This document shows positions 5,696-12,612 of a DNA stretch of 47,933 bases, piece after piece (the first letter of the stretch is position 1; every line of letters starts with the position of its first letter). Origin of the DNA: Candidatus Omnitrophota bacterium (GTDB lineage Bacteria > Omnitrophota > Gorgyraeia > 2-02-FULL-51-18). The position numbers were made by a program, and so were the translations under genes. Where the stretch lies: contig JACPWF010000012.1 in the NCBI GenBank assembly GCA_016197155.1, positions 1 through 47,933 on the forward strand. Reading direction: 5' to 3'. Below the pieces are notes generated by a model. The model was not told the DNA's origin. It made no database searches and was given only the letters and a program-made list of their open reading frames with translations.

Positions 5696-8201
5696 ACTGA
5701 GAAAACGGTACCTGGATTTCTTTAAGGAAAAAGGGCACCGCGTCTTTGAAAGCGATTCGCTCGTGCCCCGCGATGACCCGTCGCTTTTATTCACGGGCGC
5801 GGGGATGAACCCGTTTAAGCCTTATTTTCTGGGGCTGAAAAAAGACCTGCGCCGCGCGGCCAGCTGTCAGAAGTGCCTGCGCACCTCCGATCTCGATCGC
5901 GTGGGCAAGACCGCTTACCACCACAGTTTTTTTGAGATGCTCGGCAATTTTTCCTTCGGGGATTATTTTAAGGAAGAGGCCATCGCGTGGGGCTGGGAGT
6001 TTGTGACCGAGCGGCTCCGGCTCCCGAAAGAGCATTTGTGGGTTTCCGTTTACGAGAAGGACGACGAGGCCTACGGGATTTGGAAAAATAAGATCAAAAT
6101 TCCCGAGACGCGCATCGTGCGGATGGGCGCCGTGGATAATTTTTGGCCGTCGAACGCGCCGGCCGACGGGCCGAACGGGCCCTGCGGGCCCTGCTCTGAG
6201 ATTTACGTGGGGCGCGTGCCCGGAAAAGGGGTGGAGATCTGGAACCTCGTTTTCACGCAGTTTGACCGCCGGCCGGACGGTTCCTTACGCGACCTGCCGC
6301 AAAAAAATATCGACACGGGGATGGGCCTCGAGCGCACCGCGGCGGTTCTGCAGGGCGTCGCGAGCAATTTTGACACGGACCTTTTCCGGAAACTGCGCGG
6401 GGAATTGAAAGGTCTTTTGTCCGGCCCCGGCGGGAAGACCGACGAGGAAAACGCGGTGATGGACCACGTCCGCGCGATCGTTTTTTCGGTCGCGGACGGG
6501 GCGCTTCCCTCGAATGCCGGACGCGGGTATGTGGTCCGTAAAATGATCCGCCTGGCCAGCGACCACCTCCAGAAAGCGGGCGCGGCCGTTCCCGGTTCTC
6601 TGCACCGGCTTGTGCCGGCGGTGACGGGTCTCTACGGCGCCGTTTATCCGGAGATCGTCTCGCGCCAGAAATTGATCACGACGGTGATTGAAAATGAGGA
6701 ACGCGCTTTTTTGGAAATCGCCAGGATCCGCGTTCCTGAATTTAAGGAACTTTTGACAAAAACGGACAACCCCGCGAAGCTCGCGTTCACTTTTTACGAC
6801 ACGTACGGCCTGCCGTTCGAGCTCATCGAGGCCGCGGCCGCCTCGCAGAATATTTCAATCCCCCGGCAGGCCTTCGAGGCGTTTTTGAACGAACAAAAAA
6901 CCCGCTCGCGGCAGGGAAGTAAGATTTCGTCCGAAATCTTTTCGAAGAACGAGGCGCTTTCGCTCACCGAGGGCATTCCTCCGACGGCATTTTTGGGGTA
7001 TGAATGTCTCGAGACGCGGGCAAAATTATTAAAAATAATAAAAGGCGGTATTTTCATTTTTGATCAAACGCCGTTCTATGCCGAGGCGGGCGGACAGGTC
7101 GGCGACACCGGCGTGATCGAGGCCGAAGGTTTCGAGGCCAGGGTGACAAACACGCGGTGGCTCGACAAGGCGGTCCTGCACGAGGCGGCGGTGGAAAAAG
7201 GAACGCCGGAGATCGGCCGGGTGTATGCCCTGCGCGTGGAGGGCGCGCGCCGCGCGGCCATCATGAAAAACCACACGGCGACGCATCTTTTGCACAGCGC
7301 GCTCAGGAAGGTGCTCGGCGATCACGTGAAACAGAGCGGGTCGTTAGTGGCACCGGACTACCTGCGTTTTGATTTCACCCATTTCGGCGCCGTCGAGCCC
7401 GAAAAATTGGCCGCCGTGGAGGAGATGGTGAACGAAGAAGTTAAAAAAAATACCCGTCTCGATAAAAAAGTGGTCTCGAAAGCTGAGGCCCTGAAAGAAG
7501 GGGCCATCGCTTTCTTCGGGGAAAAGTACGGCGACGACGTGCGCGTGGTTTCGGTCGGGGATTTTTCGAAGGAGCTTTGCGGCGGGACGCACCTGAATTC
7601 CACGGGCGAAATCGGGCTCTTTAAAATCGTCTCCGAGGGCTCGATCCAGGCGGGTGTGCGCCGGATCGAGGCCGTGACGGGCGAGGCGGCGAGCCGGCGG
7701 GTCGAGGAGAGCCGCGTGGAACTGGAACGGTGGATGACCTTGAAGAAGTCCGAGGAGCGGGTCGGGATTTTGAAAAATAAATTGACCGGCCTTCTTTCGC
7801 AGAAAATGAAGGAGGCCGCGGACGGCCTTTTGGAGAAAGCGCCGAGCGTGGGCGGCGTGCGCCTCGTGTGCCTGGAAACGCCCCGCGCGGACGCGGAACT
7901 TCTAAAGGCCGCGGCTGAATATTTGAAAGGCAAAAAGGCCGAATTTGTGGCATTATTTCAAGCGGACTTCGAGGATAAATTCACCTACGCCGTGGCCGCG
8001 AGCGAAGGCATCGTGAAAAAAGGTTTTCATTCGGGGGCGGCGGTCAAAGAAATTTCACAGGGCCTCGGCGGTTCGGGCGGCGGCCGGGCGGATTTCGCTT
8101 TCGGCGGCGGCAAAGAACTGCCGGACCGGACGAAGGTCCTCACACTTGGCCGGCGGATCGTGGAGGCGCATTTGAAGGCCGCTTTGGGGAAAAATTTATG
8201 A
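5679..8201 (+). CDS. alaS: Alanyl-tRNA synthetase
   Basis: LFTGAGMNPFKPYFLG, HHSFFEMLGNFSFGDYFK, HTATHLLHSALRKVLGDHVKQSGS, CGGTH. Confidence 0.98.
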   Translation: MISTDELRKRYLDFFKEKGHRVFESDSLVPRDDPSLLFTGAGMNPFKPYFLGLKKDLRRAASCQKCLRTSDLDRVGKTAYHHSFFEMLGNFSFGDYFKEEAIAWGWEFVTERLRLPKEHLWVSVYEKDDEAYGIWKNKIKIPETRIVRMGAVDNFWPSNAPADGPNGPCGPCSEIYVGRVPGKGVEIWNLVFTQFDRRPDGSLRDLPQKNIDTGMGLERTAAVLQGVASNFDTDLFRKLRGELKGLLSGPGGKTDEENAVMDHVRAIVFSVADGALPSNAGRGYVVRKMIRLASDHLQKAGAAVPGSLHRLVPAVTGLYGAVYPEIVSRQKLITTVIENEERAFLEIARIRVPEFKELLTKTDNPAKLAFTFYDTYGLPFELIEAAAASQNISIPRQAFEAFLNEQKTRSRQGSKISSEIFSKNEALSLTEGIPPTAFLGYECLETRAKLLKIIKGGIFIFDQTPFYAEAGGQVGDTGVIEAEGFEARVTNTRWLDKAVLHEAAVEKGTPEIGRVYALRVEGARRAAIMKNHTATHLLHSALRKVLGDHVKQSGSLVAPDYLRFDFTHFGAVEPEKLAAVEEMVNEEVKKNTRLDKKVVSKAEALKEGAIAFFGEKYGDDVRVVSVGDFSKELCGGTHLNSTGEIGLFKIVSEGSIQAGVRRIEAVTGEAASRRVEESRVELERWMTLKKSEERVGILKNKLTGLLSQKMKEAADGLLEKAPSVGGVRLVCLETPRADAELLKAAAEYLKGKKAEFVALFQADFEDKFTYAVAASEGIVKKGFHSGAAVKEISQGLGGSGGGRADFAFGGGKELPDRTKVLTLGRRIVEAHLKAALGKNL

Positions 8202-9433
8202 AGGTGATTAAACCCGCGAGCAAAAAATTTCAAAAACTTTTTAACCGCTTCACCGTGCGCAACCGCCGCGTCGAGGAAAAGGTGCGCCGCATTCTGGAGG
8301 ACGTGAAAAACACGGGCGATGAGGCCCTGATCCGCTACACGCGGAAATTTGACCGCGTGAAATTGACACCCAGGGAACTGCGCGTCACCGAAGGCGAGAT
8401 CAACGGCGCCTATCAGAATATCAGCCCCGATTTTATCGCCGCGCTCAAGGTGGCGGTGGAGAACGTGAGCCAGTTTTACAAAAAACAGATCAAGCGCTCG
8501 TGGAAGACCCTGAGCGGGGACGGCGTCATTTTGGGAGAAAAGATCCGGCCTCTCGAGTCGGTGGGGATTTACATTCCCTCAGGCACCGCCCCCCTGCCGT
8601 CCACGGTGTACATGACGGTGCTGCCGGCGAAATTGGCGGGGGTGGAAAAGGTGTATCTCATCACCCCGCCCAACAAAGACAAAAACGTCGACCCGCATAT
8701 TTTGGCCGTGGCGAATCTTCTGAAAGTCGACGGCGTTTTCAAGGCCGGCGGCGCCCAGGCGATCGGGGCCTTCGCTTTCGGGACGCGGTCGATCCCGCGC
8801 GTGGACAAGATCATCGGTCCCGGAAACGCGTACGTGGCCGAGGCCAAGCGGCAGGTCTTCGGTTACTGCGACATCGACATGATCGCGGGGCCGACGGAGG
8901 TGGTGATCCTGGCGAACGATCACTCGGACCCCGATTTTGTCGCGGCGGACCTTCTGGCGCAGAGCGAGCATCACATGGGCACGGCGTTTCTGGTGACGAC
9001 TTCGAAACGTTTGGCCAAACTCGCCAAGAAAGTCCCGGCGCGCGGCTGGATCGTGGTCGTGAAAAATTTGAAAGAGGCGATCGACGTGATCAATCAGATC
9101 GCGCCCGAGCACCTTCAGATCATGGTGAAAAATCCGCAGAGGATCCTGAAAGACGTGAAGAGCGCGGGCGCCATCTTCATCGGACCCTACACGCCGACGG
9201 CGGTCGGGGACTACGTCGCGGGCCCGAGCCACGTCCTGCCGACGAACGGCACCGCGCGGTTTTTTTCCGGGATCTGCGTCACGGACTTTTTGAAACGCTC
9301 GCACGTCATTTCGTACAGCAAAAAGGCCCTCGAGAAAGTGAAGGAGCCGCTCGAGCGGCTGGCGTCGCTCGAGGGGCTGGTCAAACACATGGAGTCGGTG
9401 AAAATTCGATTTGAAAAAGCGGGGCACAAATGA
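8198..9433 (+). CDS. hisD: Histidinol dehydrogenase
   Basis: ESVGIYIPSGTAPLPSTVYMTVLPAKLAGV, DMIAGPTEVVILA, LLAQSEHHMGTAFLVT, GPSHVLPTNGTARFFSG. Confidence 0.97.
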   Translation: MKVIKPASKKFQKLFNRFTVRNRRVEEKVRRILEDVKNTGDEALIRYTRKFDRVKLTPRELRVTEGEINGAYQNISPDFIAALKVAVENVSQFYKKQIKRSWKTLSGDGVILGEKIRPLESVGIYIPSGTAPLPSTVYMTVLPAKLAGVEKVYLITPPNKDKNVDPHILAVANLLKVDGVFKAGGAQAIGAFAFGTRSIPRVDKIIGPGNAYVAEAKRQVFGYCDIDMIAGPTEVVILANDHSDPDFVAADLLAQSEHHMGTAFLVTTSKRLAKLAKKVPARGWIVVVKNLKEAIDVINQIAPEHLQIMVKNPQRILKDVKSAGAIFIGPYTPTAVGDYVAGPSHVLPTNGTARFFSGICVTDFLKRSHVISYSKKALEKVKEPLERLASLEGLVKHMESVKIRFEKAGHK

Positions 9434-10059
9434 AAAAGAGGACGGCGGTTTTTAAGCGAAAGACCAAAGAAACTGACATCACCGTGTCGGTGAACATCGA
9501 CGGCTCCGGGAAATCGCGTGTCCGCACGGGCATCCGCTTTCTCGACCACATGATCGAGACGCTGGCCAAGCACGGTTTTTTTGACATCGAAGTCAGCGCC
9601 AAGGGTGACCTCGACATCGACTCGCATCACACCAACGAAGACGTGGGCATTTCTCTCGGCGAGGCGTTTAAAAAAGCGCTCGGCGATAAAAAAGGGATCC
9701 GGCGCTTTGCCGATTTTCGGGCGCCGCTCGACGAGGCGCTGGCCGGGGTTCGCGTGAGCGTCGATCTTTCTGGCCGCGGCTCTTTTCACCTCCACACGCA
9801 TCCCCAGACGCGCTGGATCGCGCACCCCGCGCTTCGCGCGAAGCCCAACGACCGGCACTACACGCTGGCCGACGCGAAACATTTTTTGGAGTCTTTCGCC
9901 GGCCACATGGGGATCACCCTGCACGTCGACTGCATTTCCGGTGAACAGCCGCATCACGTGATCGAGTCGGCCTTCAAGTCTCTGGCCAAGGCGCTTGACT
10001 GGGCCACGGCCTTCGACAGCCGGTCAAAGGGCGTCCCCTCGACGAAGGGAAGGCTCTAA
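9430..10059 (+). CDS. hisB: Imidazoleglycerol-phosphate dehydratase
   Basis: TGIRFLDHMIETLAKHGFFDIEV, DIDSHHTNEDVGISLGEA, HHVIESAFKSLAKAL. Confidence 0.97.
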   Translation: MKKRTAVFKRKTKETDITVSVNIDGSGKSRVRTGIRFLDHMIETLAKHGFFDIEVSAKGDLDIDSHHTNEDVGISLGEAFKKALGDKKGIRRFADFRAPLDEALAGVRVSVDLSGRGSFHLHTHPQTRWIAHPALRAKPNDRHYTLADAKHFLESFAGHMGITLHVDCISGEQPHHVIESAFKSLAKALDWATAFDSRSKGVPSTKGRL

Positions 10060-10060
10060 T

Positions 10061-10128
10061 GTCATTGCGAGGAGCGTTAGCGACGAAGCAATCTTTGACA
10101 GAGATTGCTTCGCTTCGCTCGCAATGAC
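10061..10128. repeat. Palindromic interspersed repeat (GTCATTGCGAG...CGAAGCAATCT / AGATTGCTTCGCTTCGCTCGCAATGAC)
   Basis: 11-bp outer and 11-bp inner complementary arms around TTGACAG; same style as the GTCATTGCGAGCGAAGCGAAGCAATCT elements seen in many bacterial genomes. Confidence 0.9.
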
Positions 10129-10129
10129 C

Positions 10130-10738
10130 ATGATTGTTATTGTGGACTATGGGATGGGGAATCTCCGCAGTGTCCAAAAGGCCTTTGAGGCCGAGGGCGC
10201 GCGGGCGCTCGTGACGGGCTCCGCGCGTGAGGCCGAGAAAGCCGAAAAGATTGTCCTGCCCGGCGTCGGGGCGTTCACGCACGCGGTGAGGGAGCTCAAA
10301 GCCCGCGGGCTTTTTGATTTGATTAAGGAAAAAATTTCCTCTGGCACGCCGTATCTCGGGCTGTGCCTGGGGCTCCAGCTTTTATTTTCCCGCAGTGAAG
10401 AGGGGGAAAAGAGAAAGGGGTTCGGCATCATTCCCGGCGAGGTCCGGCGCTTCCGGACGAAACTGAAAATTCCCCACATGGGATGGAACACGCTGGAAAT
10501 CGCTAAAAAAAATTGCCCGCTTTTTAAAGGCGTTGAAGAAAAGGATTATTTTTATTTCGTCCATTCGTTTTACGGCGTGCCGCGCGACCCCTCGTGGATC
10601 GCCGCACGGACACCCTACGGCGCGGATTTTTGTTCGGCGGTGTGGAAGGAAAATATTTTCGCCACGCAGTTTCATCCGGAGAAAAGTCAGGCCGCGGGCC
10701 TGCGGGTCATTAAAAATTTTATCGATTATCGAAATTAA
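10130..10738 (+). CDS. hisH: Imidazole glycerol phosphate synthase, glutaminase subunit HisH
   Basis: MIVIVDYGMGNLRSVQKA, GLCLGLQLLF, ATQFHPEKSQ; alternative in-frame ATG at 10124 inside the repeat. Confidence 0.95.
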   Translation: MIVIVDYGMGNLRSVQKAFEAEGARALVTGSAREAEKAEKIVLPGVGAFTHAVRELKARGLFDLIKEKISSGTPYLGLCLGLQLLFSRSEEGEKRKGFGIIPGEVRRFRTKLKIPHMGWNTLEIAKKNCPLFKGVEEKDYFYFVHSFYGVPRDPSWIAARTPYGADFCSAVWKENIFATQFHPEKSQAAGLRVIKNFIDYRN

Positions 10739-10739
10739 A

Positions 10740-11471
10740 ATGCTCCCCATTCCCGCGATCGATCTGAAAGACGGCAAGGTGGTGAGGCTTCTTCAGGGGG
10801 ATTTCAAAGAGGAAAAAATTTATCCCGCGATGCCCGAGGAAACCGCGCGTCGGTTTGAGGAAGCCGGCGCCTCGCGGATCCACGTGGTTGATCTCGACGG
10901 CGCGCTGGGCGGCGAGCCGAGGAACGCCGCTTCCATTGAAAAAATTTTAAAAAAAACGGCGGCGGCCGTGGAAGTGGGGGGAGGCATCCGCACCCTTGAG
11001 AACATCGGATTTTATCTCGGCATGGGCGCGCGGTGGGTGGTTTTGGGCACGCGCGCCTCGCTCGATTCGGGTTTTTTGCGAGAATCCCTGAAGGAATTCG
11101 GGGAAAAAATCATCGTGGGCATTGACGCCAGGGACGGTCTTGTGGCGACGGACGGCTGGACCAAGGTCACGTCGACGCGGGCGCTTGATTTGGCGAAGTC
11201 GGTCGAGACGCTCGGCGGCCGGACGATTATCTACACGGATATTTCCCGTGACGGAGCGCTGAAAGGCCCAAACTTAAAGGCCATCGGCGATTTGAGCGGC
11301 GAGGTCGCGCTTCAAGTGATTGCCTCGGGCGGCGTGGCTACGCTAGGCGACCTTGAGGCGCTCATGGCGCTCAAGCGGAAAAATTTGACGGGCGTCATTA
11401 TCGGCAAGGCCTTGTACGAGAATAAATTTAAATTGGAAGAGGCGATCAGGACATGCTTGCCAAACGGGTAA
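10740..11471 (+). CDS. hisA: ProFAR isomerase
   Basis: [56 protein letters not shown]. Confidence 0.95.
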
Positions 11472-12244
11472 TCCCTTGCCTGGATGTTAAAGAAGGGCGC
11501 GTCGTGAAAGGCACGCGCTTTCTGAAATTGAAAGACGCGGGCGATCCGGTGGAGTGCGCGGTGTTTTACGACCGCGCGGGCGCGGACGAGCTCGTTTTTC
11601 TCGACATCACGGCCTCGCACGAAAAAAGAAAGATCATGCTGGGCGTCGTGCGGAAAACTGCCGAGAAGGTTTTCATGCCGCTCACCGTGGGCGGCGGCGT
11701 GTCGAGCCTCGGGGACATCCGCGACCTTTTGAGCGCGGGCGCCGACAAGGTCTCCATCAACACGGCCGCCGTGAGGGATCCCGGTTTTATCCGCGAGGCC
11801 TCGGCTCGCTTCGGCGCCCAGTGCATCGTGGCCGCGATCGACGCCCGCCAAAAACCGCCCCGCGCGGGCGCGCCAACAAGCTGGGAGGTGTTCACGCACG
11901 GCGGGAGACGCGCGACGGGGCTCGACGCCGTGCGCTGGGCAAAGCGGGTGGAAACGCTTGGCGCGGGCGAGATTCTTTTGACCAGCATGGACCGCGACGG
12001 CACGCGCTAGGGCTATGACCTCGAGCTCACGCGCCGGATTTCCGGGGCCGTGCGGATTCCCGTCATCGCCTCGGGCGGCGTGGGAAATCTCGGGCACTTG
12101 GCCGACGGATTTTTGAAAGGAAAGGCCGACGCGGTGCTGGCGGCCGGCATTTTTCATTTCAGGGAACACACGGTGGAAGAGGCCAAACGTTATCTTGAAA
12201 AAAGGGGGGTAAGGGTCCGATGGACGACACGTTTGAAAAAATAA
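11453..12244 (+). pseudogene. hisF: Imidazole glycerol phosphate synthase cyclase subunit HisF, interrupted by in-frame TAG at 12008-12010
   Basis: [23 protein letters not shown]...[39 protein letters not shown]...; homology continues in the same frame after TAG to TAA at 12242-12244. Confidence 0.93.
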
Positions 12245-12612
12245 AAGCGCAGATAAAATTTGATTCTCAGGGGCTCATCCCCGCGATCATTCAGGACGCC
12301 AAAACCGGGAAGGTGCTGACACTCTGCTACTTAAACGACGCGGCGCTCAAAGCGACGGTCGAAAGCGGTTTTATTTACGTGTTTCGCCGCTCGCAGAACA
12401 AGCTCATGAAAAAAGGCGAGACCTCGGGCCACACGCAGGCCGTGCGCGAGCTCCGCGTGGACTGCGAGGGCAAGTCGCTTTTATTTTTGATCGATCAGAA
12501 AGTGGCGGGCTGTCACAAGGGTTATTTCAGCTGTTATTTCGAAAAAGTGGAGAAGGACGGATCGCGAAAGATCACGGAAGGGCGTGTGTTTGATCCGGAT
12601 AAAGTCTATTGA
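12220..12612 (+). CDS. hisI: Phosphoribosyl-AMP cyclohydrolase (no HisE fusion)
   Basis: [37 protein letters not shown]-like ([19 protein letters not shown]), [26 protein letters not shown]. Confidence 0.93.

Follow-up and report, generated by a model that had tools for sequence, protein, structure and literature searches.

Five in-frame TAG codons, one of them in hisF, interrupt core genes of an Omnitrophota draft genome: consensus errors or weak amber suppression?

Why does an otherwise intact hisF gene, lying within a his operon, contain an amber codon, and is its cause to be sought in hisF itself or in the genome as a whole? The window, i.e. the entire 47,933-nucleotide stretch analysed here, corresponds to contig C39 in a 40-contig draft assembly of 1.43 Mb (93% complete, 1.7% contaminated) of a Candidatus Omnitrophota bacterium. 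The amber codon and the same-frame homology on both of its sides, as reported in the preliminary description, were readily reproduced: the TAG is located at exactly 12008-12010 of the forward strand, in the loop after the SMDRDGTR motif, and is codon 186 of the frame opened by the ATG at 11453 (the sequence at 11980-12019 is gaccagcatggaccgcgacggcacgcgcTAGggctatgac), which means that hisF is not one uninterrupted frame under the standard code. Similarity to HisF spans residues 1-256, covering the 185 codons upstream and reaching into the 77 open codons downstream, and the read-through product matches the HisF equivalog model TIGR00735 over the whole length (379.6 bits; cut-off 294.55). The gene resembles HisF, the cyclase subunit of imidazole glycerol phosphate synthase, in this full-length similarity, in the catalytic Asp motifs and in the his operon context, and differs from it by the single in-frame TAG.

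TAG in relatives combined with accelerated decay of the 3' part had been named as the mark of a plain pseudogene; neither was found. The 3' piece is 70% identical to the homologue from a genome of the same family (G006), the 5' piece 79%, and judging from the alignment the 3' piece is without visible decay. The site is variable, as originally described, with N (27), S (20), D (20), A (10), I (8), E (6) and Q (6) in the aligned relatives, and more rarely K, V, R, L, M or G; none of them has a stop there, and the approximately 57 orthologues compared, from the same family to the class, are all unbroken. By its sequence this is an ordinary HisF gene in which a single base turns one codon, plausibly GAG, into the TAG seen in the assembly.

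The adjoining genes hisD, hisB, hisH, hisA and hisI, thought at first sight to be intact, are all indeed intact (Table 1). A search for a second hisF, which had been proposed as a check, did return a homologue: the only other HisF-like gene of the genome, located on contig C4 beside a HisH-like gene, encodes a protein 46% identical to HisF. It scores under the HisF, HisF2 and WbuZ cut-offs, and Val replaces the second catalytic Asp of HisF (IDA of the AIDA motif is changed to IVA), hence it is unlikely to replace HisF and was rejected as a backup. The HisF-like/HisH-like pair, positioned outside the his operon, is perhaps a sugar amidation pair.

Table 1. Location of the features discussed in the text. 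Positions without a prefix refer to the window; C numbers denote contigs of the draft assembly and G126 another draft genome of the class.
Feature	Position	Strand	Remarks
hisD	8198..9433	+	intact
hisB	9430..10059	+	intact
hisH frame	10043..10738	+	intact; model match starts near 10133
hisA	10731..11471	+	intact
hisF frame read through TAG	11453..12244	+	ends with TAA at 12242-12244; overlaps hisI start; TIGR00735 379.6 bits
hisF 5' piece	11453..12010	+	185 codons, ended by TAG
In-frame TAG of hisF	12008..12010	+	codon 186; variable site in relatives
hisF 3' piece	12011..12241	+	77 open codons
hisI	12220..12612	+	intact; overlaps hisF 3' end
hisF	C39:12008	+	in-frame TAG
murC (fused to murB)	C34:22954	minus	single in-frame TAG
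infB (IF-2)	C32:40457		single in-frame TAG
Dihydroorotase	C10:21402		single in-frame TAG
NitT/TauT-type ABC ATPase	C28:63566		single in-frame TAG
HisF-like gene	C4:9367-10050		beside HisH-like gene
tRNA-Gln(UUG)	C16:69969-70041	minus	4-bp anticodon stem
tRNA-Thr(CGU)-like gene	C21:118-187		abnormal 5' half
infB of another class draft	G126:C75:3446-5173		in-frame TGA

The observation made on hisF is right, and it is one of a set of five. A tblastn comparison of 863 ORFs of G006 with the genome (1.36 of 1.43 Mb compared; 630 queries matched, 193,713 aligned residues), in which antisense shadow ORFs and gene ends, the source of most stop symbols, were set aside, revealed exactly five genes with an interruption, each on a different contig and each cut by TAG: hisF, murC, infB, and the genes for a dihydroorotase and an ABC ATPase. 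No TAA or TGA interruption was detected among the 630 genes and no true frameshift in the genome-wide comparison, the apparent frameshifts being actually gene fissions or fusions (ThiS-CysK, CtaA-CtaB and others). The reverse comparison, with 687 proteins of this genome against G006, revealed no internal stop in any real gene. Five may be an underestimate, since a scan for further cases based on codon usage returned many gene boundaries, from which it could not distinguish infB and dihydroorotase. The parts following the TAG retain 70% (hisF), 58% (murC), 66% (ABC ATPase), 84% (infB) and 80% (dihydroorotase) identity to G006. Orthologues of all five genes are unbroken in the relatives searched, which include no other genome of the same genus; the contig scan likewise found no close sister genome (best identity 71%). 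Among about 150 other infB genes of the class one in-frame stop was found, a TGA in a 59% complete draft, and among about 150 murC genes none. A literature search found no such case.

The same event in four further core genes removes the causes specific to hisF, namely a two-piece protein, programmed readthrough and histidine auxotrophy, and leaves the genome-wide ones. Of the options listed in the preliminary description, an error, or a mutation to TAG in a minor allele, keeps its place, while programmed readthrough and a two-piece HisF were rejected. For a two-piece form, of 185 and about 64-70 aa, the conserved 3' piece does have a start codon 13 codons past the TAG; however, no obvious ribosome-binding site precedes it, the TAG is not at the boundary of the HisF half-barrels, no relative has a split hisF, and the four other affected genes are unrelated. 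We regard a device peculiar to hisF as very unlikely.

True nonsense mutations, unsuppressed and carried by a decaying or mixed population, with hisF marking a histidine auxotroph or a pseudogene, would require only one substitution per gene, and a cell supplied with nutrients can do without hisF and dihydroorotase. On the other hand, murC and infB are essential in known bacteria, and both are single-copy here (the other matches are weak and correspond to related ligases or GTPases), which excludes a plain pseudogene for these two and makes it not credible that a living cell would have fixed unsuppressed nonsense alleles. The remaining his genes, like the 3' part of hisF, are intact, and decay by TAA, TGA or frameshift is not seen in the genes compared. 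This explanation is therefore improbable.

Could the TAG codons be translated? Genome-wide amber recoding had been judged unlikely, and in its full form we can rule it out: RF1 is intact (on C33, with the PAT motif), a second class-I release factor encoded on C34 was taken as RF2, and TAG terminates 188 of 1146 ORFs (16%), about as frequently as in G006 (159 of 863), with a second stop coming no sooner after TAG-ended genes than after others. Of the other window genes, at least eight, described as ending in TAG, recA, trpC, trpF, trpB, uvrB and groES were verified as genes, and the TAG ends were verified for recA, trpF, trpB, uvrB and groES. Reassignment of TAG to one sense amino acid is further argued against by the replaced residues, which differ from gene to gene. 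Pyrrolysine coding was rejected too, as no match to PylS above the cut-off was found in the genome.

Amber suppression, in which a CUA tRNA from an unassembled region or a near-cognate tRNA competes with RF1 at UAG and inserts one amino acid, would allow ambers to be tolerated in core genes while TAG still ends other genes. In-frame TAG codons in essential genes, with no other stops in the 630 genes compared, are what is expected of an amber-suppressing organism: all five interruptions, on as many contigs, are of this one kind, the single-copy murC and infB need a full-length product, and the parts 3' of the TAG are conserved (58-84% identity to G006). The search for an amber-suppressor tRNA, suggested earlier as a check, was negative: none of the 39 tRNAs found with Rfam and ARAGORN in the 93% complete draft has a CUA anticodon, and relaxed scans gave no credible candidate. 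This absence is weak evidence, because tRNA-His, the Ser GGA and CGA tRNAs and every Arg tRNA except CCU are likewise absent from the draft, so that a suppressor gene may be missing in the same way. We also observed a tRNA-Thr(CGU)-like gene, which matches the Rfam model only at positions 9-63 and is possibly a degraded tRNA. A possible near-cognate amber reader, to be taken as a lead only, is tRNA-Gln(UUG), whose C27-A43 mismatch leaves a 4-bp anticodon stem, a feature that has been linked to the misreading of stop codons (PMC13092985). However, its U34 would be expected to favour UAA and UAG equally, which counts against it, as no TAA interruption was seen. Normal TAG terminators and the dissimilarity of the replaced residues also speak against suppression, and the presence of only about five in-frame TAGs genome-wide means that suppression, if it occurs, would be weak or of recent origin. 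On balance we consider amber suppression a serious contender that falls short of an even chance. In its more specific form, i.e. a lineage with weak natural suppression in infB, murC, hisF and dihydroorotase, where RF1 still terminates at TAG and which would represent an early ambiguous stage before stop-codon reassignment, we entertain it a little more tentatively still.

The residues replaced by TAG provide further clues. All relatives checked have a conserved Glu at the infB position (AEVR in IF-2 of E. coli, Pseudomonas and Thermus). In murC, Leu predominates over Met, Cys, Ile or Thr, and the dihydroorotase and ABC ATPase sites are both Glu as read from a single relative, G006. Together with the variable hisF site, this means that TAG does not stand for one shared conserved residue, which fits random substitutions rather than a codon of fixed meaning. 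A G to T change is required at the three Glu sites and a T to A change at the usual murC Leu site, all of them transversions, and none of these four sites, for which an alternative is clear, points to CAG or TGG as the source codon. Given the codon usage of this genome, the probability that random substitutions would yield TAG in all five cases is 0.023-0.031 (0.049-0.062 without hisF). Compared with the background of the class, nonsense codons are ~8 times as frequent (p 0.046, a soft value, as the background rests on one event).

The reading that we rank first, and to which we give an even chance, is that the five TAGs reflect wrongly substituted bases in the consensus, or else minor or defective alleles. 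According to this, a single-base substitution in each of five core genes would have produced TAG in the draft consensus, while the living majority of cells would carry sense codons at the five sites. Apart from the transversions, it is favoured by the lack of a detected suppressor tRNA or PylS in the presence of both RF1 and RF2, by TAG terminators that are of normal frequency and not backed by a second stop, and by the occurrence of sporadic in-frame stops in drafts of the class, such as the one TGA among ~150 infB genes. Against it stand the exclusive use of TAG and the excess of nonsense codons noted above, as well as the implied rate of ~2.4e-4 substitutions per base, which is high for a short-read consensus and yet is accompanied by no real frameshift. 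A pure G to T artefact is also argued against, since it would turn GAA into TAA as well; GAA and GAG are used about equally often, and no TAA was seen.

If the TAGs are present in the living genome, an uncultured bacterium from the wild would depend on UAG readthrough for its IF-2 and MurC, and it would show how stop codons turn ambiguous ahead of reassignment. If they are consensus errors, they call for caution: single in-frame stops in drafts should be checked genome-wide before genes are called broken or recoded.

Among known systems, pyrrolysine coding in archaea and some bacteria (PMC7609411) is similar in that an in-frame UAG is read as an amino acid while UAG otherwise serves as a terminator, reading through being one candidate explanation here. 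However, in the present genome PylS is absent, the interrupted genes do not encode methyltransferases, and the replaced residues vary. The published case of near-cognate stop reading (PMC13092985) concerns tRNA-Trp(CCA) reading UGA, whereas the tRNA that shares the 4-bp anticodon stem here is Gln(UUG), with only a putative link to UAG. Finally, codon 33 of rpoS in Escherichia coli K-12 is GAG in natural isolates and TAG in some K-12 lines (PMC2700278). That amber affects one non-essential gene in characterised strains, whereas here five core genes, two of them essential, are affected in one draft with no suppressor found; nonetheless, it offers a parallel in which one substitution turned a GAG codon of a conserved gene into TAG, and real genomes harbour the resulting allele.
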